A stretch of DNA of 32,448 bases, taken from NCBI GenBank assembly GCA_001462345.1, contig LIUM01000016.1, forward strand, positions 1 to 32,448. The letters run 5' to 3'. Position 1 is the first letter of the stretch; every line of letters begins with the position of its first letter. Below the pieces are notes generated by a model that was given only the letters and a program-made list of their open reading frames with translations, ran no database searches and had not been told where the DNA came from. This DNA comes from Fibrobacteria bacterium AD312 (GTDB lineage Bacteria > Fibrobacterota > Fibrobacteria > Fibrobacterales > Fibrobacteraceae). The translations under genes and the position numbers were made by a program. Positions 6,595 through 32,363 of the stretch are shown piece after piece.

Positions 6595-7593
6595 TTAGTT
6601 ACTAGTGTTCTTGTACACTCTTATGTAGTCCACGAGCATTTCGGTGGGGAACTGTGTGTCGTCCACTTCGAAACCAGGCCAGGTGCCTGCTACCGCGACG
6701 TTCAAGATAAAGAAAAATTTCTTGTGGAAGGTGTCCATGTCGCCTGCTTCGGCGATCGCGATTTCTTGGTACTTAAAGTCGTCTACGTACATGGCGATGG
6801 CATTCTTATCCCAAGTCATTTTGTAAGTGTGAAACTCTGAAATATCCATAGGGTAGCTAGTGCCGTAATAGTCTCTGGTGCTGTTGCCGTAGTTTGCGTG
6901 TGCACCGTCGTGAGCCCAGTGGTGTGTGCCGTAGACAACGCTCTCGTCGTTGATGGCTTCGATAATGTCAATTTCACCGCAGGCAGGCCAGCTGACCTCG
7001 TCGATGTTATCGCCGAGCATCCAGAAGGCAGGCCAGATCCCTTTACCCACGGGGAGTGCAATACGGGCTTCGATTGTCCCGTAGACGAAACTGAACTTGC
7101 CCTTGCTAATAATGCGGGCCGATGTGTAGCTCGCTGTTTCGAAGTTTTCCTTAATCGCACGAATATGCAGGATTCCGTCTTTGATGTAGGCGTTTTCTGC
7201 ACGGTCGGTGTAGTATTCCCATTCGTTATTGCCCCAGCCGCTGTTGCCAATTTCAAAACTCCAATTGGCGTTATTGATGGTGGTGCCATTGAATTCGTCT
7301 GCCCATAGAAGGTTTGAGTCAAGAGCAAGCTCTGAGGAGCTGCTTGATGGCTCGGAACTTGATGATGTCATTGTTGATGAACTACTTGATGACTCGGCAT
7401 TCGATGATACATTGTTCGCAGAAGAGCTGCTGACAGTTTCTGAACTGCTGATTGGTTCGGCATTGGAACTGCTTGCGATTTCGGAACTGCTAGTAATTTC
7501 ATTTTCGTGAGCATCGTTTACGTCAGAAGAACAGGCGTAAAAGTTCGCCATAAGTGTTGCGGTGGCAATAATGCTGAAATACTTAAGACCCAT
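6595..7593 (-). CDS. GH16 endo-beta-1,3-glucanase (laminarinase-type) lipoprotein
   Basis: The 332-residue enzyme probably cleaves beta-1,3 or mixed-linkage glucans at the cell surface. A signal segment ends at a lipobox-like FYAC with Cys21. A poly-serine linker (about 35-90) leads into a GH16 domain (95-329). The domain contains WADEFNG, NNEWEYYTDR, YGTIEARIALP, FWMLG and the active site GEIDIIEAI, with nucleophile Glu207, Asp209 and acid/base Glu212. The extra residue in ExDxxE is typical of laminarinases as opposed to lichenases. It is not circularly permuted like the classical Fibrobacter lichenase. The coding DNA is visibly richer in GC than its neighbours, which suggests acquisition or a different expression class. 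Confidence 0.93.
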   Translation of the reverse strand: MGLKYFSIIATATLMANFYACSSDVNDAHENEITSSSEIASSSNAEPISSSETVSSSSANNVSSNAESSSSSSTMTSSSSEPSSSSSELALDSNLLWADEFNGTTINNANWSFEIGNSGWGNNEWEYYTDRAENAYIKDGILHIRAIKENFETASYTSARIISKGKFSFVYGTIEARIALPVGKGIWPAFWMLGDNIDEVSWPACGEIDIIEAINDESVVYGTHHWAHDGAHANYGNSTRDYYGTSYPMDISEFHTYKMTWDKNAIAMYVDDFKYQEIAIAEAGDMDTFHKKFFFILNVAVAGTWPGFEVDDTQFPTEMLVDYIRVYKNTSN

Positions 7594-7728: not shown

Positions 7729-10551
7729 CTATTTACTTTCTAGAAACTGGATCAATGAATCAAGACGGTGAGATAGTATCTCGGCTCCTAAATACGCTAA
7801 ATGGTCATCGTCACTTGCCATTTCACTTGTGTAATCGTGGTTTCCCATTTTGTTTTCATCCATGAAAATAAAATGAGGATTGTCTTTAGAGATATCTTGA
7901 ATGGTTTTAATCATATCGGGAGCTTTGCTTCTCAATATGCCGTTCCTTCCGTAAGCACCAGTATTTTGATAAGCAGGATTTTGTGGGGTTTCAAGAGCGA
8001 TGACGTAAAAATTATTTTGTTCTCCAATTTGTGCGATTTCTCGCAATAGTTCAACGCCTTTGTTAAACGCATCCATGTCTGATGAATTCCAGGTACTATC
8101 TCCACGTATGGATGGAATGGAATCGTTCCATCCATTAGTTGAATGAGATGAGAATCCATAGTGTGTAAGAATATAGTCTTTTATGTGTTGTTTATTACTT
8201 GGGGATTCACTTGTAAAGAGGAACAATTTTTCTGGATATTCATCAACCCAGTAATTGTGGGATCTATCGTATACGTAGCCAGGGTAAGTAAAGGCTTCGT
8301 CTTCCCAAAAACTATCAAGGAATTTAAGTCGATCGATATCGGTTCCGATCACAAGATACTTAAGATTTTTGACATGAGGTAAAATATACGTTTTAAAGAA
8401 AAAATGTGAACCGATAAGTGTGTTATGGTCGTTTGCCAAATTGAGAGCGGAAGAAGGCTTTACAAAAAAGATAGGATTAATGGTATAGAATAAGCGAGAG
8501 GATCCAAGAATGATAATGCTTGCGGAATCCTTATATTGCCATAGAAGCTCCATTTTGTAGCGATATTTTTCCGCATCACTGCTGCCATTTACTGTGTAAT
8601 AAATTCCTGCACTATCTGGATCTAATTGGAACCCTGTATCTGGTTCCACAATGGAATCGTCTGGAGGAAGAATTTTTTCTACCCAAAGAGTAGGATGCCA
8701 TAGTTCGTCACCTTCAGCGAGTTCGATGATACTACTGTCGCTTGGGTTTACCAGCACGATTTTGGGATGAGCTCCGTTTATATTGGAAAGAGTGGCTACA
8801 ATATTGGATTGCTTTCCATTCGTGGCCCATTCTGTATGATCGAAGGTATAACCCGTTGGGGATTTGATTGTTTGTATTAGTGTTCCAGTACTATCTAAGA
8901 TTAGAATTCTTTCATGAACGGCATAGGTTTCTTGGGCGAATTTTCGACCAGTATCTCCACCGAAATCGAGAAAAGCGGTGCGTTTGCTTCCATCTTGTAC
9001 AAGAGAGGCATTACAAGCCTGTTCTTCGTTGTACCAGATTGTGTCTTGCCCATTTTCGGTAATGGAATTTCCATTTTTTGTGATTCGTGTACGGAGGAGT
9101 CTTGCTCCCGTAACTGCTAGAGTATTGTCTTCGCTGATGCCTCCGTGATAGGCTCCGTCAAAAAGTTTTTGTGGTGTTCCAAACTTACCGTTTGTAAAAG
9201 GGACGTGCCAAGTGGATGTATTCTTGAAGGTGGCTTCTTCTTTGTTGTTCCCTGCATCGGTTACATAGACAATGACGGTGTCCCCATTTTCAAGAACTCT
9301 CCAACGAGGGATAGCTGCAGACTTTACATCCAGCTTTACAAGATTTTCTCCTTTGGCGGTAAGGTCTCGAACGTAGAGTGTGGAAATTCCGCTAAGACCC
9401 TCTGCTCGGGTGCAGAAGGCGACGTGTTTTCCGTCGGGAGAAATGTCGGGGTGATAAACTTTTAAGGTGTCTTCAATTTCTATGACCGACAAAGAACCGT
9501 CGTTGTAATCCACAAAAGCGAGATTTTCGCTCACGTCGTTTCTGAAGACTAACTTTGTGTTGTAGGATCCTGTGAATAATTTTAAGGTAGCTGCATTCGC
9601 GAGAACAGTCACTACGTTTTCTTTCACTTTTCCGCTGGCATCAAGCCAGATAGGGTTTGGAATGGCTCCAAACGCTAGTCGTAGTCCAATGCGGTCTGCA
9701 CGAATTTGAGCATCTACGGTATATTCGTCACCTCGAACCACCATGTTCATTTCGGAAGGTCTGTCAGAGAAATAGCCTCCCTTAAGAATTCGTTCTCCAA
9801 TATCGCTACCATCGGGGGCTCCAAGATAGTTTGTGACGGTAGTATCTCGCAATTGCCCTGCCCAATCATTAACCCATTCCCTTAGATTTCCTGCTAGGTC
9901 ACAAAAACTGGCGGAGTCAATCCCTGCTGTGCAAATTGGATGAGATTTGAAATCTGAATTGTCGGCATTCCAACTGAATTTTTTGGGATCCCAACTTTGT
10001 GATGCAGCCAATACCCATTCGGCTTCGGTGGGAAGGCGGTAAGCGTTTGCTTCTGGATTAAAGGCGAAACCTTCTAAGTTAATACAGTGATTTTCGCTGT
10101 CATAGGTTTTGCTGCGATAGGTGTATGCGGTGTCTTTTTTTTCGCTTTTGCTTTTTGCATTTGCAATGAGAGCGGCATCGTAATAGGTCACATCAGCAAG
10201 GGGAAGACTATCGTTTTCGCAGGAACTAAAGTCTTTCAGATCTTCTATTTTTGTTAATTCTTGAAATTCGCCACAGGTAAACTCGTGGATCCCCAGATAG
10301 AAATCGTAATCCAAAATCACCTTCATTGCGGGGCGTTCAGAAGGTTTGAACTGATTATCATTGCTCCCAAGGGTTAGCGTATCTCCGCGAACGAAAATCA
10401 TTCCATTTAATGAATCAATGATGTCTTCTGGTACTTCGTTGCTGCTAGATGAATCTGGATCTTGATCATTGCTATAGGAGTTTTTCCCATCGTCACTGCA
10501 ACAAGTAAGAAAAAATAGTGAGAATACGATTAATGGCAGAATCTTTTTCAT
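7729..10551 (-). CDS. Large lipoprotein: FGE-sulfatase domain + beta-propeller + SGNH-like domain (TIGR02171-type)
   Basis: The 940-residue protein starts with a lipoprotein signal (LFFLTCC, Cys17/18) and an acidic serine linker. Residues about 50-300 form a formylglycine-generating-enzyme-like domain (YRLPTEAEWVLAA, LAGNLREWVNDW, ILKGGYF, RIGLRLAFG). A TolB-like propeller follows (about 310-630; YHPDISPDGKHVAF). The last 290 residues look like an SGNH/GDSL-type domain with IIILGSSRLF near 682 and DDDHLAYLG near 917. Length and lipobox match my recollection of the TIGR02171 paralogous family of Fibrobacter succinogenes, which has no assigned function. The FGE part may only bind, since catalytic cysteines are not evident. 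A GAGGAG ribosome site precedes the ATG. Confidence 0.85.
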   Translation of the reverse strand: MKKILPLIVFSLFFLTCCSDDGKNSYSNDQDPDSSSSNEVPEDIIDSLNGMIFVRGDTLTLGSNDNQFKPSERPAMKVILDYDFYLGIHEFTCGEFQELTKIEDLKDFSSCENDSLPLADVTYYDAALIANAKSKSEKKDTAYTYRSKTYDSENHCINLEGFAFNPEANAYRLPTEAEWVLAASQSWDPKKFSWNADNSDFKSHPICTAGIDSASFCDLAGNLREWVNDWAGQLRDTTVTNYLGAPDGSDIGERILKGGYFSDRPSEMNMVVRGDEYTVDAQIRADRIGLRLAFGAIPNPIWLDASGKVKENVVTVLANAATLKLFTGSYNTKLVFRNDVSENLAFVDYNDGSLSVIEIEDTLKVYHPDISPDGKHVAFCTRAEGLSGISTLYVRDLTAKGENLVKLDVKSAAIPRWRVLENGDTVIVYVTDAGNNKEEATFKNTSTWHVPFTNGKFGTPQKLFDGAYHGGISEDNTLAVTGARLLRTRITKNGNSITENGQDTIWYNEEQACNASLVQDGSKRTAFLDFGGDTGRKFAQETYAVHERILILDSTGTLIQTIKSPTGYTFDHTEWATNGKQSNIVATLSNINGAHPKIVLVNPSDSSIIELAEGDELWHPTLWVEKILPPDDSIVEPDTGFQLDPDSAGIYYTVNGSSDAEKYRYKMELLWQYKDSASIIILGSSRLFYTINPIFFVKPSSALNLANDHNTLIGSHFFFKTYILPHVKNLKYLVIGTDIDRLKFLDSFWEDEAFTYPGYVYDRSHNYWVDEYPEKLFLFTSESPSNKQHIKDYILTHYGFSSHSTNGWNDSIPSIRGDSTWNSSDMDAFNKGVELLREIAQIGEQNNFYVIALETPQNPAYQNTGAYGRNGILRSKAPDMIKTIQDISKDNPHFIFMDENKMGNHDYTSEMASDDDHLAYLGAEILSHRLDSLIQFLESK

Positions 10552-10650
10552 GATGGTTTACTCCTCTATAATAAGATAGATTAAGTTATTGAATCCATCA
10601 TCACTTATTAAGAGAAATGTGACGATTGCATACTTAAATTTCTTTTTGTT

Positions 10651-10753
10651 CAAATATATCGGTTTTGATACACTCACTGGTTTTCGTTGCAATTTTCACA
10701 GAATTTTTTCGCAAAAAATTACACAAGTATCTAAAAATCTTGGGTATACAATG
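10651..10753. repeat. 103-bp direct repeat, left copy
   Basis: It aligns without gaps to 13074-13176 at 81 of 103 positions (my hand count). It contains an imperfect outer dyad (TTTTGATAC near the left, GTATCTAAAA near the right) and ends in a -10-like TATACAAT. It lies about 200 bp upstream of the glycosyltransferase genes, so it may be a promoter region, a MITE-like element, or a recombination border. The surrounding 10552-10650 stretch holds only the upstream region of the lipoprotein gene. Confidence 0.75.
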
Positions 10754-10797
10754 TATCCAATCAAATTCTTGATTAATATGAACTGAAAAAACACAAG

Positions 10798-10911
10798 TGT
10801 CTTGAGCCACAGCACATGGGCCTCCCATTCGGGAGTGACTGCCTTCACTAAATTCAAGGTCAAGCGCTCAAAACAGGTACACTCTTTCTTATCACAAACA
10901 AAAAGGATCAT
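10798..10911 (-). pseudogene. Possible N-terminal remnant of a GT4-type glycosyltransferase
   Basis: Reading from ATG at 10911 on the minus strand, the frame gives MILFVCDKKECTCFERLTLN followed by LVKAVTPEWEAHVLWLKT. This resembles the first beta-strand and helix of GT4 glycosyltransferases (typically 'ILFVCDK...GGAER...NL...L'). About 38 codons later the similarity ends and the frame runs into the 103-bp repeat. It is oriented opposite to the adjacent GT2 genes and shares their higher GC content. I infer a truncated gene at the edge of a transferred polysaccharide locus. The missing GGAE motif and short length keep confidence low. Confidence 0.4.
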
Positions 10912-10949
10912 CTTCACAAGTTGAAAAATACTTTATTATATTGTGGACT

Positions 10950-11900
10950 ATGGCACAGCTTTACATCGTAATGGCAACATACAACGGCGAAAAATACCTT
11001 TCGCAAATGCTAGATTCACTTGTCTCCCAGACAAGGCCTGCAGATTCTATCGTTGTCGTCGATGATGGTTCCAAGGATGCAACCGTTCAAATTCTTAAGA
11101 GTTACGCGAACAGGCTCCCTCTAACGATTATCCAGTTCGAGAAGAACCAAGGGCATCGCGCCGCCTTTTCTCGAGGGCTAGAAGAAGCTAAGAAAAACGT
11201 AGGGGAAAACGACTATATCGCCCTAGCTGACCAGGACGATATCTGGCTCCCCTGCAAGCATGAACTTCTCATGGCTGAAATCGAGAGAAGCAACGTGGAC
11301 CTAGTCCTAGGAGATGCCGAAGTCATCGATTCCAAGGGCAAGAAATTTGGGGATTCTTGGAGAGCCTTGAACTCAATTCCCGAGCATCTTTCCTTGCACG
11401 CCCTCATGACTGGTTTCACCAACGTGACTGGCTGCATGGTTCTTTTTCGGGCAAGCCTCCTCAAAAGCGTGCTTCCCATTCCTGTGGATGTTTTCGTTCA
11501 TGATCAATGGATTACATTCTGCGCTGCGGCAAGAAACGGTTATGCTACCATCAAGACTCCCGTTATCCAGTACCGCATTCACGAATCCAACGCCATCGGG
11601 CTGGGCCACAATCACACTTGGACGGGCAACCTAAAGTTGAATTTGCAATGGGCGAAAATGCTCCAGCAGACGCCCCACTACGAGCGCCTTCCAGAAAACG
11701 GCCAGAAGTTTCTCGACGTTTATATTTCCTACGTGGAAAAAAGACTTTCCCGTTTTTTGTTGCCAGGCTACCTTCCCTGGATTGCTAAAAACGCAAAGAG
11801 CCTGTTTCCGCACATCCATAATTTCCTCCCCATGATTCCGAGAGTTCTTTACGGAATCATGGGAGCAAAGTTTGCTACCAAATTTCTAGGAAAATCCTGA
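10950..11900 (+). CDS. Family 2 glycosyltransferase (rhamnosyltransferase-like)
   Basis: The product of 316 residues transfers a sugar from a nucleotide donor to a growing glycan on the cytoplasmic side of the membrane. The GT-A fold signature is clear: YIVMATYNGEKYLSQMLDSL at the start, VVVDDGS near residue 40, NQGHRAAFSRGL, and the metal-binding ADQDDIW near residue 90. VHDQWITF follows near residue 185. The C-terminal third has basic, hydrophobic helices that could touch the membrane. The ATG at 10950 is preferred to an in-frame TTG at 10941. Its stop overlaps the next start (TGATG), so the two transferases are cotranslated. GC content is higher than in flanking DNA. O-antigen or exopolysaccharide assembly is inferred. 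Confidence 0.9.
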   Translation: MAQLYIVMATYNGEKYLSQMLDSLVSQTRPADSIVVVDDGSKDATVQILKSYANRLPLTIIQFEKNQGHRAAFSRGLEEAKKNVGENDYIALADQDDIWLPCKHELLMAEIERSNVDLVLGDAEVIDSKGKKFGDSWRALNSIPEHLSLHALMTGFTNVTGCMVLFRASLLKSVLPIPVDVFVHDQWITFCAAARNGYATIKTPVIQYRIHESNAIGLGHNHTWTGNLKLNLQWAKMLQQTPHYERLPENGQKFLDVYISYVEKRLSRFLLPGYLPWIAKNAKSLFPHIHNFLPMIPRVLYGIMGAKFATKFLGKS

Positions 11901-12820
11901 TGAAAACCCGGGTAATCCTAGTCAACTACAAAAACGCCGAGCTAACGGTGCAGTGTTTGCGTGCTTTGGAGCGGGGTACCATCAAGCCAGAAAAGGTGTA
12001 CGTCATCGACAATACGCCCATGCTCGAATCCCGAGCCGTTTTTGAAACGTACCAAATGGAAAGGGGAAAAAAATCGACGGAAAACACGTTCCCCATCCAG
12101 TTCATCTACAACGAAAAGAATGTGGGTTTTGCAGCCGCTTGCAACCAAGGGGCTCGCCTCGCCCTAGAGGAAGGATTCAAGGGCTATATCTGGCTATTGA
12201 ACAACGACACCGAACCCGAAAAGGAAGCGCTGGAAAAACTTCTGCAGAAGACGAAATCAACAGGTGCAGGCATCACAGGTTCAAGGATTGTGGACGAAGA
12301 AGGAAACTTTCTCGGCGGTGTGGGAATCACCCATCCGAAAATGGCCTGCGTCAGCCGCCCCAAGGACACAAGCGTTACTCAATTCGATTACGTGGAAGGT
12401 TCCTCTTTTTTGATTTCCCATTCGTGCATTGAAAAAATCGGTCTCCTGAGCGAAGACTACTTCTTGTATTTTGAGGAAAGCGATTACTGCTACCGGGCTC
12501 GGAAGGCGGGACTCACTCTTGCTTGGGCCACCGACAGCGTGGTTCTCCACCGTATCGGTTCTAGCACGGGAAGCGAAAACGCCAAGAAAAACGTACCCTT
12601 CTTTATCGATTGCCTCATGATTCGTAACCGAATCCATTTTGCGTGGACAAACGGATTTTCCAAGCTGGGAATCCTTGTAGGACTTATGATTTCCCTTGCA
12701 CTCCGAATCAAGCGGGGCCAACTGAACCGAGTGGCAAAGATTTTAAGCATTACGGCCTCCACGAAAAAGTTGAAGCAGTTTATTGAAGAGAACGGAGGTT
12801 TCTATGAACTTCGTCCATAA
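11900..12820 (+). CDS. Family 2 glycosyltransferase (RfbF/rhamnosyltransferase-like)
   Basis: The 306-residue GT-A enzyme contains VILVNYKNAELTVQCLRAL, VYVIDNTP, NVGFAAACNQGARLA and the nucleotide-sugar/metal site WLLNNDTEPE near residue 100. Later, DYVEGSSFLISHSCIEKIG and FLYFEESDYCYRARKAG mark the acceptor region of rhamnosyltransferase-type GT2 enzymes. A short hydrophobic stretch (GILVGLMISLALRI) near residue 260 suggests membrane association. It overlaps the first transferase by one base, and its 3' end overlaps the start of a broken exported-protein gene. Together the pair are the only intact members of what was probably a longer surface-polysaccharide operon. Confidence 0.9.
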   Translation: MKTRVILVNYKNAELTVQCLRALERGTIKPEKVYVIDNTPMLESRAVFETYQMERGKKSTENTFPIQFIYNEKNVGFAAACNQGARLALEEGFKGYIWLLNNDTEPEKEALEKLLQKTKSTGAGITGSRIVDEEGNFLGGVGITHPKMACVSRPKDTSVTQFDYVEGSSFLISHSCIEKIGLLSEDYFLYFEESDYCYRARKAGLTLAWATDSVVLHRIGSSTGSENAKKNVPFFIDCLMIRNRIHFAWTNGFSKLGILVGLMISLALRIKRGQLNRVAKILSITASTKKLKQFIEENGGFYELRP

Positions 12821-12969
12821 GATTTTTACTGCCTTTGCTATTCTTGCACCCAGCTTTTTCGCAGCCCCTGCCAGCCGCTGACCTAGAAGGACGCCACATA
12901 AAAGTCATTGACCCATCTCTTCACCATCGTAGACAGAAGACTGCTAAAAGCCAAAAGCTGTGCCCTTAA
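12804..12969 (+). pseudogene. Broken exported-protein gene: signal peptide followed by frameshift and truncation
   Basis: A strong GGAGG ribosome site (12794-12798) precedes ATG at 12804. The frame encodes a convincing signal peptide (MNFVHKIFTAFAILAPSFFA) and stops after 25 residues at 12881. In the +1 frame the sequence continues as AADLEGRHIKVIDP and so on to a stop at 12969, as expected if one frameshift separates the signal from the mature protein. After 12970 the DNA becomes AT-rich and nothing gene-like remains. I read this as the 5' end of a third operon gene cut off at the border of the glycosyltransferase block. Confidence 0.6.
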
Positions 12970-13073
12970 ATCGTTTTCATTCCTATATATAAATGTTCTT
13001 TTTTTGCATATCGCTCCAAATTTATCCGCAATCCAATCAAGACATGGTATACCTATGATTTATAAATCTAGGT

Positions 13074-13176
13074 CAAATGTATAGGTTTAGATACATTCGG
13101 GCAGTGTTGTTGCTTTTTTCGCAGATTTTATTCGCAAAACTTTACACAAGTGTCTAAACATATTGGGTATACAATG
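13074..13176. repeat. 103-bp direct repeat, right copy
   Basis: Partner of 10651-10753 in the same orientation, 2,423 bp further on. The outer dyad arms are TTTAGATACA and GTGTCTAAA, and the end is again TTGGGTATACAATG. Several differences between the copies fall in the arms but keep the dyad recognisable. The interval 12970-13073 before it is AT-rich with no feature that I can support. Confidence 0.75.
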
Positions 13177-13239
13177 GCTATTTTTTAGCCGACGGAGTAA
13201 AGTAGAAATGGAACGTGTAGTTTTAAGGATCATCGTCGT

Positions 13240-13624: not shown

Positions 13625-13999
13625 ATGAATGTTTCACAGAAAAAAGAAATCCTTGCAAGCCTTAACTGGGATTCATCGGTTACCATCGATGAACTCTTAA
13701 ATCTTGTTGAAGGCAAATCTCTGATTGAGGCTGGAATTAGTCGAGAATCCTTTTTTCTTCGCTGTCTAGAACGAGTTCCATGGCACAATTTGATTGTTCT
13801 ATGGGATGGAGTAGAAAACAGCAAAAAATTGTATACGAACAATGTAAGAAGAGGATTGCGAAATGGAAATCTCCGAAGAAAATTTGACTTTGTATTCGGT
13901 ATTTTACGAGGAGAGTCTGTACAAGCTCCAGAATGGAGTTCTGAATATTGTCAAAAACTTAAACGTACCTTTTTACCTGACCGGTGGAACCGCGCTTAG
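13625..13999 (+). CDS. Partner protein of an AbiEii-type nucleotidyltransferase (putative antitoxin)
   Basis: The 124-residue protein is soluble and mostly helical. It contains a block LIEAGISRESFFLRCLERVP followed by WHNLIVLWDG and RRGLRNGNLRRKFDFVFGIL. Small proteins of this build often stand directly upstream of AbiEii-like nucleotidyltransferases, so I infer an antitoxin or accessory role; no biochemical function is known to me. The last 45 codons overlap the nucleotidyltransferase frame by 137 nt, ending DRWNRA over the same bases that encode LTGGTAL in the other frame. If the overlap is not real, the protein would need a frameshift near 13863. It differs from classical AbiEi, which is found in the second pair at 22856. 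Confidence 0.65.
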   Translation: MNVSQKKEILASLNWDSSVTIDELLNLVEGKSLIEAGISRESFFLRCLERVPWHNLIVLWDGVENSKKLYTNNVRRGLRNGNLRRKFDFVFGILRGESVQAPEWSSEYCQKLKRTFLPDRWNRA

Positions 14000-14579
14000 T
14001 AGAGGCTACTATAATCATCGTTATTCAGACGATTTAGATTTCTTTTTAAATCACGATTCAAATTTTGATTCTTATGTGAGTTCTGTTCTCGAGGAACTCA
14101 AAACCAAAGGTTTTTATTGGAGTAACGAGATAGGTTTTGTTAAATCTATGGACTTTTATTCTTTAATAGTTCAGCATTCAGATTTTTGCACTAAATTAAA
14201 ATTGGATTTTGTCAATGATATCGTCGCTCATTTTGGTGATATACAAAATACAGACGTATATTATAGAACTGATTCAATACGCAACATTCTTTCAAATAAA
14301 ATTACTGCAATATTTAGAATGTCTGCCAAGGATGTTGTTGATATTCGAGAAATCTGTATACATGAAAAATTTGATTGGAATGAAATTTTTACAGAAGTTC
14401 GCGAGAAAGAATTGGGCATTGAACCATTAGAAGTAGTAGAAATTCTTAAAGGCATTCCGAAAACAGCTTTTAATAGTATTAAATGGATCCAAACGACAGA
14501 TTACGAAACATTCATGTGTGATATAGAAATTATTGCTAGAGATATGCTTGGACTAACTTTTAATAGTTTAGTAAAATGA
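13863..14579 (+). CDS. AbiEii/AbiGii-type nucleotidyltransferase toxin-like protein
   Basis: The 238-residue protein belongs to the DNA-polymerase-beta-like nucleotidyltransferases used as toxins in abortive-infection and toxin-antitoxin pairs. YLTGGTALSRGYY (residues 38-50) is the GG(S/T) nucleotide-binding motif. NHRYSDDLDFF supplies the catalytic aspartates Asp57 and Asp59. Later, SNKITAIFRMSAKDVVDIRE matches the lysine/RxxKDxxD region common in these enzymes. An AGAGGA site precedes ATG 13863. The related enzyme AbiEii/MenT is proposed to modify tRNA acceptor ends; the target here is unknown. It is cotranscribed with the overlapping partner and converges with the ATPase operon, whose last frame overlaps this gene by 12 nt. 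Confidence 0.88.
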   Translation: MEISEENLTLYSVFYEESLYKLQNGVLNIVKNLNVPFYLTGGTALSRGYYNHRYSDDLDFFLNHDSNFDSYVSSVLEELKTKGFYWSNEIGFVKSMDFYSLIVQHSDFCTKLKLDFVNDIVAHFGDIQNTDVYYRTDSIRNILSNKITAIFRMSAKDVVDIREICIHEKFDWNEIFTEVREKELGIEPLEVVEILKGIPKTAFNSIKWIQTTDYETFMCDIEIIARDMLGLTFNSLVK

Positions 14580-15004
14580 AAAAAGGATAAGCATATTATT
14601 TCTTTGAAATGCTTGCCCTGTGATAAGCCCAGAAGTGGTTATCACAATATGCAAAAATCCTTTATTGTATCTTCGCAGAAAAAGTTTATTGACCCCTTGT
14701 TCTGCAATCAACGCCGCACCAGTCAATGTTGAAATAATACAGCCAGCATATTTTGCTCGAGTTTTATCAAAATGATAGTCTCGGCCACCACAAAGGTGTT
14801 TAGCCCGGTTTTCTAGAGTTTTAGGCTCATCTTCTTTTCCATCAGGAACGTTTAGATTGATAACAATGCCGTCAACACCTTTTACTTCGGAGTTGTTTTT
14901 AAAAACTGTGGTGGACGAAGCTCTTTTTCATCAGGTTTAGGTGAACCCTTCAACGATTTTAACATTTCATTAAAAGCTTTCGCATCTGTTGTATTTTTAG
15001 GCAT
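14568..15004 (-). pseudogene. Frameshifted small gene coupled to the AAA ATPase
   Basis: ATG at 15004 overlaps the ATPase stop by 8 nt. The frame gives MPKNTTDAKAFNEMLKSLKG and stops at 14883. A good reading frame continues in the -1 frame (SEVKGVDGIVINLNVPDGKE, then AKHLCGGRDYHFDKTRAKYA and so on) to a stop at 14568. The two frames can be joined at T-TTA-AAA within a T5A5 run (about 14897-14907), a heptamer of the slippery X-XXY-YYZ type. It may therefore be a programmed -1 frameshift, a phase-variable or mutated homopolymer, or a sequencing error. The joined product would be about 145 residues and matches no family that I recognise. Pairing with the ATPase suggests an effector or regulator role. 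Confidence 0.6.
14619..14646. repeat. 8-bp inverted repeat near the convergent gene ends
   Basis: TGTGATAA at 14619-14626 pairs with TTATCACA at 14639-14646 across a 12-nt loop, just after the AbiEii-type gene. It lies inside the frameshifted gene. It has no T-tract, so it is only a weak candidate for a terminator hairpin. Confidence 0.45.
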
Positions 15005-16343
15005 TATTAGCGTTCTCTTTTTCGGAAAATAATCCGCCGAAAGAATTTAGCTTTGGAATGCCACCAAGTTGTCCACTTAAATAAAGTTTTGTCAAACAAT
15101 GATCTTTTCGAATATATCCTTTAGGCATTTTATATTCGTAAAGCGCTGTTAAAGAGGTTGCTCCGTTTCGTTCATTTCTTTCTGAAATCCATATTTCATC
15201 ACGACGTAAAACTTCTTGATCCATCTGCAAAATATCATGATTAGTCAAAATTAACTGTGAGCGAGTGTCTTGATTTCTTGTCTCTAAAAAAGAAACAAGC
15301 AGTTGCTTAACTAGATTAGAATGCAGACTTCGATCTAGTTCATCAACGACAATGCATACATCAGAGCCTTGTGCTGTTAAAGAATGAAAAGCAGGGAATA
15401 AATGTAAACAACGCCTAAAACCATCTGAGTTTTCTTTTATTTCAAAACGAACTTCTTCATCATTTTCGTTTTTGTGATAAGATACCATTTTGAAAACAGT
15501 TAATTGGCTATTTCGAAATTCAAATTTGCAAAAATCATCGGCAAGATTGACAGCCCAGACCATCTTGTTTCCAGCGGAAAGTGTTTGTTGTATATCTTCT
15601 AGATCACTGCTACTAAATCCACTAGCTTGTGGAGTTATTTCTTCAAAATCGATACGAGAAATCCCTGTATCAATTAGACTCAGTGTATGAGACAGATTAC
15701 GAACAGGTAAAGTTCTATCGTTAAATTGAATCAGTTTGCTTTCTGGGCTTAATATCATTAAGGAAGTACGAAACCAGTTAAAAACTTTTTGAATAGAATC
15801 CATTCCTTCAAGTTTTTTTGTCAAAACGCTGGATAGAGCCAGTTTGTTTGGTAAGGTTGATTGGAAATGTTCTTTTGATGTTTTAGGTATATTGGGACTG
15901 AATTTATAAACTCCATTTTCTCGAGAGAAAAGAAGAGATTTTCTTTTTTCATTGAAGCAGATAAGCGTTTCTTTTGTTACTTCCGAATTAAAAAGTGAAA
16001 AATCATAATGGAATAATTTCTCATCAATAATTAAATCAAAGGCGAAGAAGCTCGGTTTATCAGCACACTCCTTTGACAAACGAAAATAATCGAGAAGAAA
16101 TTTGCCAAACGGATTAAAATCTGTCGATGTAATCATTTGTGATGCAAAAGCAATCGCCTTGACTAGATTTGATTTTCCAGAAGCGTTTCCACCATAGATA
16201 AGGGAAATTGGCAACACATTTAAGTCGTATTCTGGAACATATTGAATATGATTAGAGTGTTGTTTCTCTTTTTGTGCAACAAATGAGATAGAGGTTGGCT
16301 CTTTAAAGGACTTCCAATTTTCAACGGTAAAGCGAACTAGCAT
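14997..16343 (-). CDS. AAA_15/AbiL-RloA-type ATPase, candidate defence protein
   Basis: The 448-residue ABC-like ATPase begins MLVRFTVENWKSFKEP, typical of AAA_15/AAA_21 proteins. Walker A is GGNASGKS (51-58), a signature-like ENSDGFRRCL lies near 304, Walker B is IVVDELD (331-337) with a following LH, and the H-loop is LTNHD near 366-370. Such stand-alone ATPases occur in OLD-like, RloA/RloB, PrrC-type and retron-associated systems, where they sense infection and control a toxic partner. No TOPRIM or HNH domain is fused here. An AGGAG site precedes the ATG. The next frame overlaps its stop, and the large restriction enzyme lies 135 bp upstream. The defence role is inferred from fold and neighbours. 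Confidence 0.85.
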   Translation of the reverse strand: MLVRFTVENWKSFKEPTSISFVAQKEKQHSNHIQYVPEYDLNVLPISLIYGGNASGKSNLVKAIAFASQMITSTDFNPFGKFLLDYFRLSKECADKPSFFAFDLIIDEKLFHYDFSLFNSEVTKETLICFNEKRKSLLFSRENGVYKFSPNIPKTSKEHFQSTLPNKLALSSVLTKKLEGMDSIQKVFNWFRTSLMILSPESKLIQFNDRTLPVRNLSHTLSLIDTGISRIDFEEITPQASGFSSSDLEDIQQTLSAGNKMVWAVNLADDFCKFEFRNSQLTVFKMVSYHKNENDEEVRFEIKENSDGFRRCLHLFPAFHSLTAQGSDVCIVVDELDRSLHSNLVKQLLVSFLETRNQDTRSQLILTNHDILQMDQEVLRRDEIWISERNERNGATSLTALYEYKMPKGYIRKDHCLTKLYLSGQLGGIPKLNSFGGLFSEKENANNA

Positions 16344-16478
16344 AATAACTCCTGCATGCTTTACAAATATATGAAATTTAAATCAAAAAGTTGAATATGA
16401 AGAGAAAAAATCTCCATAAATGATTGTTTTTACCGTTTTTTATAAGAGAAACATCTGTTTTTTGCTAAATCAAGCTAA

Positions 16479-19400
16479 TTACTCTCCGAAATCTAATTTG
16501 GGTAATCCATTTACGATGTCCATGGTTTTGAGGCTTAAGTCGATGACAGAGACGAGGGTGTCGAGGATGTAGCGGGGGTTTTGGTGCTCGAGTGCCCAGT
16601 CGTTGCAATCGTTGGTGATTAGGCTGTCTTTGTCCTGCGTGACGGCGTAGCGTTCGAGGATCCAGTCGATGGCGGATTTGCCATTGACGATGTATTCGTA
16701 AGCACGCTCGGGGATGTTTTCGATTGTAATGGAATTGTTGTAGAATATTTTCGATTTGTCGGCCTTGCTTGCAAAGCGCATTTTGTCGGGGATGCGGAAA
16801 TACTTGTATTCTTCAGGGGTATAGGTTTGGCCTGTTGTTTTTATAAGTTTATTGCCTGTGATGTTTATGCCGAGTGTTTTGGCTATTTTTTCTGCTTCGT
16901 CACTTGATTTTTCGTAGTTCAAGTGAAGGTTTGCGAGGGCGCGGCCTGCACGCTCAAAGGCAGAGAAATCTTCGTATTTAGAAACAAAGATGATTTTGGG
17001 TAGAGATTTTTTGAGATCATCTTTGAAAGTTTCTCGGTAGTCTTTGCTGTGAAGGAATCCATAGACATAATAGAAGATGTTTTCTTTGGTTATTTTTTTG
17101 GATGAGCCATAAAGGCGTTTGGCTTCGGCGAGGGCCCAGTTAGAGATACCGTCTCTTTTTTCGAGTTCTTGTGCAAAGAGGTCGCTTTTATTTGGTTCCG
17201 CATAGTAGTAGAGAGGGAAGCATTGACTTTTGCCAATGAGTTCAAGATCAGGAAGAATATTTGAAATGATACAAGAAAAATCTTTAGTTACACCAATTCC
17301 AGAAACGCAGATGACAAGGTTTTGCGTGTCGGGGGTGGGGAAAATGGTCAACTGTTGATAGGTTCTTTGAATAAATTTTTTCTCATAGCAAAAATTCTGC
17401 TTGAAGAATGGACGATACATAGATATAATATTTTTTTCTGGGCTTTTAGAATACGTGATGTTATTTTCTAAATCTTTCAAGAACATATCTGTCCAAGTAA
17501 TCTTTGTTGTATCATATTTGACAAAATCTTTAGAGCTCTTGTTTGTTTTTGATTGGTGGAAAAGATCTTTTTGTTCGTTATAATATTCAACCATTTTTTG
17601 AATGTTTTTAGTCAAATTTTTTTTCGAAGAATTATAAAGCCAGCAATCTTTATTTGTTGCAATACCTAATGAATAGTTCACAAACAAACTTTTCGTCCCC
17701 ATATCAAACTTCTTTTCTGGAGCGAGTGGTGTGAGTGTATCAAATACATCACCGCGTTGGTTAATCCAGTCGGCTTTTTCATTAGGTGTAATGGATTCCC
17801 ATTTAATCTGCTGAATCGAGGAGGCTTCTTTTAAGATTTCGAGTTTCCGCTCACGAGTCAAGTAATCGCCAATATCGTGGTAATGGATTTTGCAGGGTTC
17901 CTGTTTTTTACTCGGGTTATAAACAAGGAAAGTAATTGTCACTGGGGTACGGCTACCACTACCGAAAATTTTACCCCCTTCTTTTCGAGAAAGTTCTCCG
18001 CTTGTGCGTTGATTCCCACGAAGATTTAATACCCAAATGCTTGTGAATTCTTCGACAAGGCTTTTTCGCATGCCGTCTTGCCCGTTACCGTCTAGCCAAC
18101 TTCCATTGGTAATAAAAGCAACGATGCCGCCTTCTTTGTTTTTTTGAATACGGTCACTGGCGAGGCGAAATGCTTTGATATAGGAATCGTAAAGAGACTT
18201 TTTTAAATTCGCAGAGGACTTTGCTGCATAGGTATCTTCAATACGGGCGTCTAAAATGGGGTAGCTTAAATTTTGAGCGTTGTCGTTTGCACTTTTTTGC
18301 CCCACAGAATAAGGAGGGTTTCCAATGATCACGCGTACAGGGGTTTTTCGCTGTTTTTCTACTTCTTTATAATTGTCGCTAAAGTAATCGTCTAATTTTA
18401 CACTTTCTTGGCTGCTGCCTTTGTGTTCGGCTGTTTGGAATGTATCTGTTAGGCATATTCCATTGAAGGGTAAATATGCTTTAGACTTATTCAAGTAATG
18501 GTAAACGCTTTCAATGTTTACATCGGCAATGTAGTAAGCTAGGAGTACTATTTCGTTCGCGTGGAGTTCTTTTTTATATTTGCGTTCCAAGTCTTCTTTT
18601 TTTATTAGGCCACTTTGCAATAATCTGGTAATAAACGTGCCTGTGCCTGTGAAGGGGTCTAAAATATGAACGTCTCGGTTTGTCAAATCGGTATGGAATT
18701 CTTCGTGCAAAAGGATATTTACGGAGTGAACAATAAAGTCCACGCATTCAATGGGTGTATAAACAATGCCGAGTTTTTCAACGGTAGTGGGGAATGCTGA
18801 TTTGAAAAACTTTTCGTAGAGTTCTTTAATGACTTTCTGCTTGCCTTCTAGATTATCTAATTGCCCCACATTGGTACGCACAGAGGTATAGAATTTTTCA
18901 AGTTCATCGACTTCTTGATCCACGCCTTCTTTGCGAAGTTCTTTAATAACACGCGTCATGGTGCGTGAGATAGAGTTATTTTCAATAAATTTGTAATCTC
19001 CAAAGAGTGCATCAAAAACAGGTTGTGTGATCATGTGCTGGGCAAGCATTTGCACGGCATCTTCTTCTGTGACAGAATTATTGATGTTCTTGTGGAGAGC
19101 GGCTAAATATTTTTCAAAAAGTGCACTTATTTTGCTGTTTTTTAAATCACGTAAATAATCAATACGTGCAATAAATTTCTTGGCAATAACACCAATGCTT
19201 TTGGCCCAGTTTTCCCAATAATATTTTTCTCCCACCTTTTCTACAAGGCGTGCTTTGAATGCGGCTTCAAATTCATGGAATCGCATTTCGATTTGGCTCG
19301 GGTCAAACGGAATGGGTTCATCATTATTTCGAGCACCAAATGGTTGCCTTTTGTGCTGTGCCGCAGGTTTGACAGCTACAATTCTCGGTGGTGTTTTCTT

Positions 19401-21416
19401 GTTTAAGAGAACGCTGTTGACCTCGGCATTGAATCTGTCATCATGAGAACGGAGTGCATTTAAAATATCCCACACTACCTTAAAACGTTTGTTGTCGTTG
19501 AGAGCTTCATCTGCCGTTTGATCTAGTGGAACTACCACAGGAATAATGATGTAGCCGTATTTCTTTTCGTTTGGAGACCCTTTTTTAAACGTGCGCATCA
19601 CGCGGCCTACGCTCTGGACTACATCCACTTGCGAATTACGTGGGCTCATAAAAATCACGGCATCTAGTGCTGGAACGTCAACTCCTTCGGACAAGCAACG
19701 CACATTACTGACTATACGGCAGGTGTTGCTTTCGGTTTCTTCTTTAAGCCAATCAAGGGTGCTTGTTCGTGCAGAGGCACTCATGGAGCCATCGACATGG
19801 CGAGCTTCAATATTTACCAAATGATTTTTAGAATTATTTTTGAGGTCTTTTTCGTATTGCTCTGAAATGTAGGGCATTACTTTTTCAAAATTCTTCGAAG
19901 AGCTTGGCATATTGGGTTTGCCAATTTTTTGGCAGAACGCCACGGCTCGTTTCATTACGCCAGGGTCTGCATTCCATGTGACTCCATCATCGCCTTGAAT
20001 CAGTTTGGAAAGCGCGCTAATGACCCCTATCATTTTTGAGGAATCGTCAAAATCGAATTCTTTGCTCTCATTGTTTTTAAGCGTGGTCAATAGGCTTGGT
20101 GGTAAATCGTACTCGTTGACCGAAAGGACAAGTACTTTGTAATCGGTGAGAAGCCCTTTATCGACCGCATAACCAAAACCTACGCGGTAAAATTCTTCTC
20201 CAAAAACTTTTGTGTCGTCCATAGAAAACAGAATGCAATCGTCTTGTTCTTTGGCTTTACTTTTCGCGCTTTCTCCGTATACGCGCGGTGTGGCTGTCAT
20301 GTATAGGCGTTTGTGGCCTTGGATAAATTGATTGCTATGGATTTTTACAAAATGACTTTCGTCTACACTTCCGTATTTTACGCCTGTGGTGCGGTGGGAT
20401 TCATCGCAAACAATTAAGTCAAAGGCTCCAAAAGAGTTTTTCGTTTCTTTAAGGATTGCTTTTTGTGCTTGTGATACTACGTCGATGGATTGATAAGTAG
20501 AGAATATGACGGGGAGTTTTTTTTGCGCTCGGGCAAGTTCAATGTGTTTTATAATTGTTTTTACATTGGTGCTTGCAGGTATAGAAAGTTCGCTTAAGTT
20601 GTCTTCGATTTCGTCGAAATCTTCTTTTGCGTTTTTCTTAATTTCAGAAGCGGTAGCATCAGAACACACCCCTATTGGGTAAATGTCTTTTGATGTGTCT
20701 GCCATCCAAGAATTTAACGCTTGGCCGAGGAGTGCAATGGAAGGAACCATAAACAACACAAACCCATCATTTTTTACCATACTTTCGGTAATCAGGAGTG
20801 ATGTATAGGTTTTACCTGTTCCGCAAGCCATAATGAGCTTGCCTCTGTCGTGGTCTTTGAAGTAATCGTTAGCCTTTTGAACCGCCTCTTTTTGGTGGTC
20901 CATCGGCTTTTTTGTTTTATGCTTAATCTCTGTCTTGCCCTGCCATAAGGCATTCCAATCTAAAGAGGATTCATCAAGATCGGCGGTAGTTAGGCGTGTT
21001 ACAGGAGGATTTTGGTTGTTAAGCGTTTCTTCGGCGTTTGCGCCCCACTTGTTAGAAGTTGAAACCCATACACGAAGTGCAAATTTCAATTTGCCTTTTT
21101 CACCAAAGCCGCGGCTTGATGTGGCAATAAAGGAATCGACTGCTTTTTTGTCTATGACGGTTTCTTTGGCGTAGCATTTGCATTGAATAGCCCAGTAGGT
21201 GTCTTCGTTTGTTTTAGCGACAAGGTCTATCCCTAAATCACGCCCACCTAAGTCTTCTTTGTAAGGAAATTCGTCCCAAAGCCAAACGTCGGAGAGTAAG
21301 CCTTTATAACGGTTATCGTTTTGAAAAAAGCGTTTCATTAACTTTTCAAACTTATTCCCCTTTTCTTTTTCGGTGGCAGACTGACGGACTAATTCAAGAA
21401 TATCGGCAAAGGTCAT
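16479..21416 (-). CDS. Type ISP restriction-modification enzyme (LlaGI/LlaBIII-like single polypeptide)
   Basis: About 1645 residues combine nuclease, translocase and methyltransferase. The N-terminal Mrr-like nuclease has GNKFEKL, GIDLVAK and the QCK end of D...QxK near residue 78. The SF2 helicase shows HQKEAVQKA, ACGTGKT near 197, CDESHRT near 336, MTATPRVYGE, and VGRVMRTFKKG. After a helical coupler comes the gamma-class N6-adenine methyltransferase, with DPFTGTGTF near 922 and IGNPPYS near 1030. The C-terminal portion is the target-recognition region. The family cleaves DNA between head-to-head sites. MTFADILELVRQ is the usual family N terminus, so I use ATG 21416 and not the in-frame ATG at 21458. 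No breaks are seen, so it should be active. Confidence 0.95.
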   Translation of the reverse strand: MTFADILELVRQSATEKEKGNKFEKLMKRFFQNDNRYKGLLSDVWLWDEFPYKEDLGGRDLGIDLVAKTNEDTYWAIQCKCYAKETVIDKKAVDSFIATSSRGFGEKGKLKFALRVWVSTSNKWGANAEETLNNQNPPVTRLTTADLDESSLDWNALWQGKTEIKHKTKKPMDHQKEAVQKANDYFKDHDRGKLIMACGTGKTYTSLLITESMVKNDGFVLFMVPSIALLGQALNSWMADTSKDIYPIGVCSDATASEIKKNAKEDFDEIEDNLSELSIPASTNVKTIIKHIELARAQKKLPVIFSTYQSIDVVSQAQKAILKETKNSFGAFDLIVCDESHRTTGVKYGSVDESHFVKIHSNQFIQGHKRLYMTATPRVYGESAKSKAKEQDDCILFSMDDTKVFGEEFYRVGFGYAVDKGLLTDYKVLVLSVNEYDLPPSLLTTLKNNESKEFDFDDSSKMIGVISALSKLIQGDDGVTWNADPGVMKRAVAFCQKIGKPNMPSSSKNFEKVMPYISEQYEKDLKNNSKNHLVNIEARHVDGSMSASARTSTLDWLKEETESNTCRIVSNVRCLSEGVDVPALDAVIFMSPRNSQVDVVQSVGRVMRTFKKGSPNEKKYGYIIIPVVVPLDQTADEALNDNKRFKVVWDILNALRSHDDRFNAEVNSVLLNKKTPPRIVAVKPAAQHKRQPFGARNNDEPIPFDPSQIEMRFHEFEAAFKARLVEKVGEKYYWENWAKSIGVIAKKFIARIDYLRDLKNSKISALFEKYLAALHKNINNSVTEEDAVQMLAQHMITQPVFDALFGDYKFIENNSISRTMTRVIKELRKEGVDQEVDELEKFYTSVRTNVGQLDNLEGKQKVIKELYEKFFKSAFPTTVEKLGIVYTPIECVDFIVHSVNILLHEEFHTDLTNRDVHILDPFTGTGTFITRLLQSGLIKKEDLERKYKKELHANEIVLLAYYIADVNIESVYHYLNKSKAYLPFNGICLTDTFQTAEHKGSSQESVKLDDYFSDNYKEVEKQRKTPVRVIIGNPPYSVGQKSANDNAQNLSYPILDARIEDTYAAKSSANLKKSLYDSYIKAFRLASDRIQKNKEGGIVAFITNGSWLDGNGQDGMRKSLVEEFTSIWVLNLRGNQRTSGELSRKEGGKIFGSGSRTPVTITFLVYNPSKKQEPCKIHYHDIGDYLTRERKLEILKEASSIQQIKWESITPNEKADWINQRGDVFDTLTPLAPEKKFDMGTKSLFVNYSLGIATNKDCWLYNSSKKNLTKNIQKMVEYYNEQKDLFHQSKTNKSSKDFVKYDTTKITWTDMFLKDLENNITYSKSPEKNIISMYRPFFKQNFCYEKKFIQRTYQQLTIFPTPDTQNLVICVSGIGVTKDFSCIISNILPDLELIGKSQCFPLYYYAEPNKSDLFAQELEKRDGISNWALAEAKRLYGSSKKITKENIFYYVYGFLHSKDYRETFKDDLKKSLPKIIFVSKYEDFSAFERAGRALANLHLNYEKSSDEAEKIAKTLGINITGNKLIKTTGQTYTPEEYKYFRIPDKMRFASKADKSKIFYNNSITIENIPERAYEYIVNGKSAIDWILERYAVTQDKDSLITNDCNDWALEHQNPRYILDTLVSVIDLSLKTMDIVNGLPKLDFGE

Positions 21417-21673
21417 AAAACAAATTCCCGCAAAAAGAAGAAGGTAATCAATCATCAAATTATATAAAAAAATAAGACAAAGGTTTTTTTATGCGTTTTT
21501 TACGAACGGCCATTTGGTCATAAATAGGCAAGCATTTTTATGGCAATCATTTAGTATATTAACCCATTTTTAGAGATCGCCGAACTTGAGTTGCCCATAA
21601 GTGCTTTTTTTCTGCTCAAAGGCTTTCCATTTCGGTCTTTAATTTGTTATATTACAGCTCGTTCAACCAACAT

Positions 21674-21815
<142 letters not shown>

Positions 21816-21828
21816 CTACAACATTTTT

Positions 21829-21860
21829 TATGAAACCCAAAACCCCCTTTGGATTTCATA
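21829..21860. other. Hairpin downstream of the AbiE operon
   Basis: TATGAAACCCAA (21829-21840) pairs with TTGGATTTCATA (21849-21860) at 11 of 12 positions, 76 bp after the AbiEii stop. It may limit AbiE transcripts from running into the convergent tRNA. There is no T-tract on the minus strand, so termination is uncertain. Confidence 0.4.
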
Positions 21861-21935
21861 GAATTTCTGGAAATCCCTGCGCGAGCACGAGATTGAAATG
21901 TGAAGCGATTCACCAGAGAGAGTCGCAAGGAATAT

Positions 21936-22859
21936 TCACAAAGTCCATCCCTTCGATGGAATCCAGTGCGTAAATGGGAATGATTCCTGTTCTGATATTA
22001 AATTCAATACGGGTAGAATAAATTGTGCAATTTCACTAATGGCATCCTGTAAAGATCCCACTGTTTCCAAGGGCTTGGACTTTTTCACAAAACCATGCCA
22101 TTGACTTTGCTTCGATAAATCAGACCAAAACTCTTCGGTCAATGCAATTGGGGGTTTATTGGGAAAACTTGTTTTACGCCGCTCAAAAGTACTTTTGATT
22201 GCTTCAGAAAATTGTGTTTGTTCAAATTCAAACATTCGGGATAAAAGACAAAGATCATAAAAGTCCTTCATGCGACTATTCGCGATGCCGAGCTTGACCA
22301 TTGCTTCGATTTTTTCTGCGGCAAGTGTATAATGCGAATAACCCCTGATGTGAGCTTGTGGAAAATCTAGAATGGATGGAAAATCAATAAATTCAGCTTT
22401 AGGCACAACGGCATCACCAAAGCCAATATCAATTTGAATGGGGATGCGAGCCTTTCCAAGCATACCAACCATAGTGATCCGCACACCATTATATTCCTGC
22501 CATTCTTTTATTGGTTCTACTTTCAAAGAATTGATTTGAAACTGAACGCCGTCATCCTCATAAGGATCTGAAATCACTTCGGTAAAAACAGTATGGAGTC
22601 TTTCAATGCTGGGATCACCAAAGCCAAGAAGGTCCACGTCCTTTGTGACTCGGAAGTTTTGTCCTTTCCAAACCAGGAACATGCTTGCCCCTTTAAGAAT
22701 GAATTGATTCACATACTTGGATTGACTCAAGCGGTAAAGTAACCGTTCCTGTCCATATCTCGTCAGTAACAATTCAAAATCCGCTCCAAGTTCCTTTGAT
22801 TTACGCGTAAGCTGTACACGAACAAAATGAGCCGCATCGGGTTGGTTGGGTTTACTCAA
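21936..22859 (-). CDS. abiEii: AbiEii nucleotidyltransferase toxin
   Basis: The 307-residue toxin of a type IV toxin-antitoxin pair has the AbiEii core: a helical leader with DFELLLTRYGQERLLYRLSQ, then FILKGASMFLVW with the Gly-x-Ser motif (Ser59), and VTKDVDLLGFG with catalytic Asp74 and Asp76. IQIDIGFGD, YTLAAEKIEAMVKLG and MKDFYDLCLL follow in family order. I place the start at TTG 22859, which overlaps the AbiEi stop and sits 7 nt after a GGAGG site. The product then begins MSKPNQPDAA as in relatives, whereas the in-frame ATG at 22904 would extend it into AbiEi. AbiEii/MenT enzymes are thought to block tRNA function. All catalytic motifs are intact. Confidence 0.93.
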   Translation of the reverse strand: MSKPNQPDAAHFVRVQLTRKSKELGADFELLLTRYGQERLLYRLSQSKYVNQFILKGASMFLVWKGQNFRVTKDVDLLGFGDPSIERLHTVFTEVISDPYEDDGVQFQINSLKVEPIKEWQEYNGVRITMVGMLGKARIPIQIDIGFGDAVVPKAEFIDFPSILDFPQAHIRGYSHYTLAAEKIEAMVKLGIANSRMKDFYDLCLLSRMFEFEQTQFSEAIKSTFERRKTSFPNKPPIALTEEFWSDLSKQSQWHGFVKKSKPLETVGSLQDAISEIAQFILPVLNLISEQESFPFTHWIPSKGWTL

Positions 22860-23455
22860 ACGATAGCCTCCATGTATGGTTTCATGACTTTCAGTACTCT
22901 GCAAACTTTTGCCGCTTCGGTGATTTCGTCCATGGTGGCTTGTTTATTTTTCCATACTTCACGCAAGGCTTCAATTGCCACGTCAAGGCCGACCTTGCTT
23001 CGGAATTTAAAACAATCAGCAACCGTTCTTGCCGGAGAATAAATCTGAAAACGAAATTGTCCCACAAGATGATCTTGCCTTCCAAAGGAATACGTTTTAG
23101 GATCTACAATGGTGTAGTTGATGGGAGGATACTGTACTTTGGTTTTTCTCCTACCTCGGGGAAGGGTGATCCACACTTCGTGAGGAAGTTGCGTAGTTAT
23201 TCCATAAACGCTCAGAGCAGACAGCAGAGAAACAGTACATTCACCAACTTGGCGGACCGCCTCAATAATGGAACTGTGCTCTATGGCGTGAAACCCATCC
23301 TTATCAATAAACAATCCCTTCGCTGATTTTTCTAGAAAACCCTGAGCATAGAGCTTATAGAGGTACCTTCTAGAAACTCCCAGGCTTTCTGCATCCGCAG
23401 CTGAGATAAACCCATTTTGTTTAATTTGCTCTAGAAGAAGCTCTTTTTTATTCAT
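22856..23455 (-). CDS. abiEi: AbiEi antitoxin and autorepressor
   Basis: The 199-residue antitoxin has an N-terminal winged-helix segment (FISAADAESLGVSRRYLYKL, then GFLEKSAKGLFI; about residues 10-52). A C-terminal domain typical of AbiEi follows: LSALSVYGITTQLPHEVWIT, YSPARTVADCFKFRSKVGLD and AIEALREVW. In known systems the N domain binds the operon's own promoter and the C domain neutralises the toxin. ATG 23455 is preferred over an in-frame TTG at 23470. The gene precedes the toxin with a four-base overlap of stop and start, giving coupled synthesis. A promoter flanked by perfect inverted repeats lies immediately upstream, consistent with autorepression. Confidence 0.93.
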   Translation of the reverse strand: MNKKELLLEQIKQNGFISAADAESLGVSRRYLYKLYAQGFLEKSAKGLFIDKDGFHAIEHSSIIEAVRQVGECTVSLLSALSVYGITTQLPHEVWITLPRGRRKTKVQYPPINYTIVDPKTYSFGRQDHLVGQFRFQIYSPARTVADCFKFRSKVGLDVAIEALREVWKNKQATMDEITEAAKVCRVLKVMKPYMEAIV

Positions 23456-23460
23456 TTTAA

Positions 23461-23512
23461 TAGTTCTCAATTTGTATACAAATATAAATTAATGTAATCA
23501 ATATGAGAACTA
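23461..23512 (-). promoter_or_regulatory. AbiE promoter flanked by 9-bp inverted-repeat operator
   Basis: On the minus strand TTGATT and TATACA are separated by exactly 17 nt. The sequence TAGTTCTCA at 23461-23469 is repeated as its perfect complement TGAGAACTA at 23504-23512, 43 nt apart, so the two arms bracket the -35 and -10 elements. A TTTGTATACAAA palindrome overlies the -10. Published work on streptococcal AbiEi shows binding to inverted repeats around its promoter, which fits this layout. Confidence 0.7.
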
Positions 23513-23709
23513 GAAATTTTAAAATTTTTGAAATTCATTGCATCTATCTAGTGTAATGGATTAAGAAATACCTTCATGATTTGTATGATCTGTAAAAATC
23601 ATATAATTTATTGCATTCTGTTGAAGTGGTTAGATAATAAAAAAAGTATTGTAAAATCTAGGGTGAATTTCTTAAATACTTAGTAATTTAGCTAAATTAA
23701 GCATGTATT

Positions 23710-23826
23710 GTCAGCTTCCCAAGCTGAATGTCGAGAGTTCGAACCTCTTTTCCCGCTCTTTAGAAATCGCCTCAATGTGGGCGATTTTTTTTGTTTTCGG
23801 GGCAATTTCGCCAAATTTCATGTCAA
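23710..23826 (+). repeat. Attachment-type direct repeat, right copy (truncated tRNA-Gly + terminator)
   Basis: It starts at the anticodon stem of tRNA-Gly and lacks the acceptor 5' strand and D arm, so it cannot give a tRNA. The following terminator stem is kept (AAATCGCC/GGCGATTT with T8). It is the probable attR of the AbiE cassette. Identity to 21699-21815 ends sharply at both sides. Confidence 0.85.
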
Positions 23827-30641: not shown

Positions 30642-30700
30642 GTTTTTTTATGAAGAACCAAGCGTCATTTGCTTGGAAAGCAAATAGCGAAGGCACGAAT
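30642..30700 (-). repeat. Inverted partial copy of the left-end repeat
   Basis: The complement of 30642-30700 contains a 'ctatttgcttt...caaatgacgcttggttc...aaaaaaact' order like positions 391-437. It immediately follows the rsmG stop, so it may act as a transcript end. Confidence 0.6.
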
Positions 30701-30750
30701 AAAAAAATATTACAATTCAATTAAATCATAATAGTGAATTACTAGACGAA

Positions 30751-31936: not shown

Positions 31937-31951
31937 AATTATTCTTTACTT

Positions 31952-32293: not shown

Positions 32294-32363
32294 ATTGTAA
32301 ATCAACTAGCGTAGACGCAAATGAAAAAAACAATAGTATTCAATTAACAAATACTATTAAAAT

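Follow-up and report, generated by a model that had tools for sequence, protein, structure and literature searches.

MITEs are short, non-coding, intergenic elements that are dispersed in genomes and carry terminal inverted repeats (TIRs). The TIMEs are Tn3-derived miniature elements of 262 bp with 38-bp termini, which have been recently active and produce target duplications of 5-6 bp, and a case with two such mini-elements in the same orientation (TIME-COMP2) has been published (PMC4133298). The other system closely related to the locus described here is a conserved but unnamed surface-polysaccharide module of Fibrobacter, with the arrangement GT4(-) / GT2a(+) GT2b(+) Wzi-like(+), which we identified in F. 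succinogenes-type genomes with a GC content of 48-53%. Both edge genes of the module are full length in loci L029, L030, L031, L033, L034 and L036, and in L034 one additional gene separates GT2a and GT2b. The last gene encodes a protein of ~485 aa, whose match to the Wzi capsule assembly protein (PF14052) is weak (33.2 bits, cut-off 30.1). No paper on a Wzi-type module in Fibrobacter was found in the literature.

The stretch of DNA analysed here (the window, 32,448 nt) is contig C16 of a Fibrobacteraceae genome, G000, which has a size of 2.83 Mb in 50 contigs, a completeness of 99% and a GC content of ~38%. For comparison within the genus, two further genomes were used, G001 (74% complete) and G002 (77% complete), both of which are partial.

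Gene content of the block between the repeats

Two direct repeats at 10650-10753 (+) and 13073-13176 (+) can be aligned over 104 nt without gaps at 79% identity (E 4e-19 across the whole genome), in agreement with the preliminary description of this DNA, which had reported a gapless pair at about 79%. They are the core of copy 1 (10625-10755, +) and a part of copy 2 (13044-13178, +) of a longer element with TIRs, which were matched by the element profile with E 1e-26 and 1e-32, respectively; these E-values are flattering, since both copies belong to the model's own alignment. All the genes previously described between the repeats, namely two intact GT2 genes between a minus-strand GT4-like stub and a signal-peptide stub, were present.

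The first of these is the N-terminal stub of a GT4 glycosyltransferase gene (about 10784-10911, -; ATG at 10911). The minus-strand stretch 10786-10917 shows 64-72% identity over 43-44 aa to the N-terminal end of GT4 proteins that are full length in Fibrobacter (E about 1e-17). The homology of the stub ends near 10784, from where the frame continues into repeat copy 1 and then reaches a stop. A divergent intergenic stretch (10912-10949, +) follows, containing TATATTGTGG, which is common to the closest relatives. A promoter-like stretch was located at 10913-10942, upstream of GT2a, by the promoter scan and the DNA alignment of the relatives. The divergent stretch is likely to serve as the module's own promoter, and this may be why the head of the GT4 gene was retained.

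GT2a (10950-11900, +) and GT2b (11900-12820, +) encode intact GT2-family glycosyltransferases of 316 aa (PF00535, E 3e-31) and 306 aa (PF00535, E 2e-15). GT2b resembles a rhamnosyltransferase (TIGR01556, E 1e-20), though its score of 73.8 bits is under the curated model cut-off of 200.55. Both genes are complete and presumably still expressed, and their products are likely to transfer sugars onto a surface glycan. They are followed by the broken 5' part of a gene for a Wzi-like outer-membrane protein (12804-12935, +; ATG at 12804), consisting of a signal peptide of 25 codons and then a stop, at the position where the protein of ~485 aa begins in the relatives. A frameshift had been proposed in this stub. 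The early stop was confirmed, and the likeness beyond the frameshift is weak, out of frame and suggestive only (HIKVIDPSLHH vs HIxFxDSxRHH, E about 1.5).

In the DNA alignment to the relatives, similarity starts at about 10784 (in the GT4 gene, near codon 44) and tails off around 12930 (in the Wzi-like gene). The repeats therefore flank the recognisable module, as had been described, but do not touch it, being separated from it by 28 bp and about 110 bp. Gene order and orientation are the same as in the Fibrobacter module (L029-L036), as are the GT2a/GT2b and GT2b/Wzi overlaps and the divergent promoter stretch. The adjacent GT2 pair orthologous to that of the module is present, with protein identities to the nearest Fibrobacter copies of up to 77% (GT2a) and 65% (GT2b). 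Unlike in the Fibrobacter module, the full-length divergent GT4 gene and the full-length Wzi-like gene are absent, only the broken 5' stubs being left, and the background GC is lower by about 10 points. Because the gene order is kept, the Wzi start overlaps GT2b and the similarity ends inside both edge genes, the comparison indicates a single module cut at both edges, i.e. a truncated derivative, and not unrelated genes that were assembled.

A GT2a-GT2b pair was also found near nuo-like genes in a low-GC relative (L032, 7048-8915, the same locus as L148 in G109). The ORF list of that locus contains neither a GT4 nor a Wzi-like gene; therefore, the pair may stand alone.

Origin of the module

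The composition of the GT2 genes is foreign to the window. Their GC3 is 0.56-0.58, against 0.29-0.32 in the core genes, which have a GC content of 0.36-0.40. GC is 0.48-0.49 within the GT2 genes vs mostly 0.33-0.42 around them, which bears out the rise in base composition reported before; this rise is not unique in the window, the GH16-family gene having a GC3 of 0.58. That gene (6598-7593) lies near the glycosyltransferase block and is likely an import too.

In the GT2b tree, the window copy clustered with G020/L029 and G031/L030 (support 100/98), a position within the main Fibrobacter genus. The GT2a tree gave the same placement less firmly (83/87 at the nearest fork; 97/99 with G048). The midpoint rooting and a few long branches limit what the trees can say about the direction of transfer, for which composition is the main guide. 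No match to the GT2 module genes was found in the incomplete genomes G001 and G002. Composition and tree topology together favour a lateral import of the module from a Fibrobacter lineage of higher GC. The best identities (77% and 65%) suggest that the donor is unsampled or that the transfer was not recent; for a core gene, speA, the identity between G000 and the main Fibrobacter genus is 81-86%. The full-length relatives, GC3 and the trees thus uphold the earlier proposal that the block was cut out of a longer surface-glycan locus and acquired from elsewhere. On a small scale, it clearly illustrates how surface-glycan genes pass between gut Fibrobacteraceae and are pared down to two glycosyltransferases. 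The site of the module is flanked by a TIGR02171 lipoprotein gene and an AbiEii-like gene, and the latter, taken as a syntenic anchor, had no match among six relatives.

The dispersed repeat element

A whole-genome search of G000 gave four full copies of the element, the two in the window and two others at C23 52515-52653 and C49 45527-45662. The C49 copy has an orthologue in G001 (C287), which carries an internal deletion, and the same genome has what is probably a short copy upstream of rplM (G001:C83, E 5e-4). A DNA search of the remaining family gave short matches only (E 0.001 or worse), which were taken as chance, and no exact match to the TIRs was found in viral contigs.

The element is ~130 bp long and non-coding, with imperfect TIRs of the CATTGTATACCTATGATG type at its ends. 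In the TIR test, 72% of the cells in 26 terminal pairs matched, vs 28-51% with the partner slid, which gives moderate support as the structure was drawn from the same sequences; a shuffle control was not above chance because of the conserved termini and is uninformative. The model also matched the C23 copy on the opposite strand (E 8e-4). Single-strand DNA folding of the repeat was moderately better than that of shuffled sequences (z -1.5 to -3.1). A structured RNA was considered as well and rejected, as no Rfam match except a tRNA was obtained in the window.

No clear target-site duplication was seen at any copy, the comparisons for the rplM and C23 copies having unclear borders and no clean empty site, and no parent transposase was found. 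The element is like MITEs in being short, non-coding, intergenic, dispersed and bounded by TIRs; unlike them, it has only four copies here and neither a demonstrated target duplication nor a parent insertion sequence. It is thus likely a MITE-like, low-copy element, which was presumably mobile in former times. Since one copy is common to the sister species, the element is old. No paper on it was found in the literature, and it is apparently an undescribed dispersed element to be added for Fibrobacteraceae.

Relationship between the repeats and the module

We regard the locus as a laterally acquired, truncated glycan module beside MITE-like repeats, produced by ordinary gene transfer and decay. 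It is quite probable that a Fibrobacter module fragment was laterally transferred into a spacer which probably already held two such repeats, and that it is now decaying. According to this model, a conserved surface-polysaccharide module GT4 / GT2a-GT2b-Wzi-like would have passed into a Fibrobacteraceae genome of ~38% GC, where a fragment of it would have landed in a spacer that probably contained the two small non-coding repeats beforehand. The outer genes would then have broken, while the divergent promoter region and the two complete glycosyltransferase genes remained, and this pair could still act in attaching sugars to a surface glycan. A simple reading of the present arrangement may be that the block was inserted into a short spacer between two copies in tandem.

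The age of the repeats is important for this model. Full-length comparison gives an identity of 73% for copies 1 and 2, 60-71% for the other paralogous pairs and 83% for the orthologous C49 and C287 copies. Because copies 1 and 2 are less alike than the orthologous copies of two species, the bracketing repeats probably predate the capture of the module, with one orthologous pair serving as the measure. The absence of the module from the incomplete genomes G001 and G002 hints that it arrived after the divergence from G001; in that case, the repeats were already distinct at that time.

It had been suggested that the module was exchanged or captured like a cassette through its repeated borders, and that further copies in the genome might flank other inserts. 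Two more full copies were found, neither beside an insert; these and the G001 copies are solitary. No copy of the element was found at the module edges in the sampled donor-type loci. A search of G001 and G002 gave no empty site, as their contigs stop short of this region. As for integron or cassette-array features, no integrase family was detected among the scanned window proteins, and there is one insert only. With copies 1 and 2 probably older than the capture, cassette exchange through the repeats is unsupported. Foreign DNA that is flanked by direct repeats need not have been moved by them.

A further possibility is that the locus is a composite non-autonomous transposon of the TIME-COMP type, in which the two mini-elements carried the module along as a cassette, the transposase being supplied in trans. 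Like TIME and TIME-COMP (PMC4133298), the locus has small non-coding elements with imperfect TIRs, which share one orientation and enclose 2.3 kb of compositionally foreign DNA with broken edge genes, and the match of the C23 copy on both strands agrees with such a structure. That two of the four copies in the genome bracket one insert in the same orientation has a chance of about 0.5% (an estimate), which also counts toward an involvement of the repeats. Unlike TIME, the element is only about 130 bp long, its copies are strongly diverged, and no target duplication or known transposase partner was seen. The two copies are about as different from each other as unrelated copies, no direct repeat was found outside the pair when the outer flanks were read by eye, and there is no transposase ORF between them. 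Only one gene of the window matched a transposase-like family, a PD-(D/E)XK gene at a distance of 18 kb, and no further insert bracketed by the element was found. A composite transposon is thus an unlikely explanation.

The 10-bp sequence ATCCAATCAA occurs as a direct repeat immediately within the left (10755-10764, +) and the right border (13031-13040, +). Shuffles of the two spacers contained a match this long, at any place, in 1.2% of cases (tested for the stretch minus its first base); the repeat was spotted after the fact and is a lead only, although its position at both edges makes it more striking. The pair could conceivably be an insertion scar. It is rather improbable that a genus-specific mini-element brackets and moves foreign surface-glycan genes among Fibrobacteraceae, with ATCCAATCAA marking an insertion between tandem copies.

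The repeat might also be a shared promoter or operator, flanking the module merely because each copy is upstream of a gene. A motif WTTACA-N21-TATACAAT near the right end is conserved in copies 1, 2 and C23; the C23 copy precedes a gene by about 45 bp and is suitably oriented, and copies 1 and 2 point toward GT2a and a 65-codon ORF, respectively. However, the spacing of 21 nt exceeds that of a standard sigma-70 promoter, the promoter scan gave no site inside either repeat, and the module retains its own promoter-like stretch. In the C49 copy the motif is degraded, and both this copy and its G001 orthologue are located between the convergent ends of two genes, which by eye were named from their sequences as malate dehydrogenase-like and as coding for a small membrane protein. 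Since the copies are dispersed and these two lie between convergent genes, an ordinary promoter is excluded as the whole explanation, contrary to the alternative named in the preliminary description that all copies are promoters, and we consider the promoter reading of the flanking repeats improbable. Vertical inheritance in the genus with decay at both ends is very improbable, for although related genes in G109, G106, G107 and G004, which belong to other genera of this family, make an old presence possible, the GC3 is unlike that of the core, the GT2b tree places the window copy inside the main Fibrobacter genus and the two incomplete same-genus genomes gave no match.

Neighbouring features

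Upstream of the block, 7732-10551 encodes the TIGR02171-family lipoprotein of 940 aa (1144 bits), a member of a large paralogous family in Fibrobacter. It is 66% identical to one Fibrobacter copy, and two more paralogues are found on contig C7 of G000. Downstream, a defence-type cluster at 13863-21458 comprises a gene for a Type ISP-like restriction-modification enzyme of 1659 aa and, next to it, genes for an AAA ATPase and an AbiEii-like protein. In the region 21674-23826, a sequence made up of the 3' part of a tRNA-Gly(CCC) gene and what follows it (21699-21815) is repeated at 23710-23826 with 96% identity, and these repeats bracket an AbiEi/AbiEii-like type IV toxin-antitoxin pair with no integrase between them. 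This region resembles the product of a tRNA-directed integration in which one end was duplicated, and it is a better cassette candidate than the glycosyltransferase block. Another family of intergenic repeats of about 40-110 nt, in direct and inverted orientation, occurs near the window ends (1-560 and 30641-32448).
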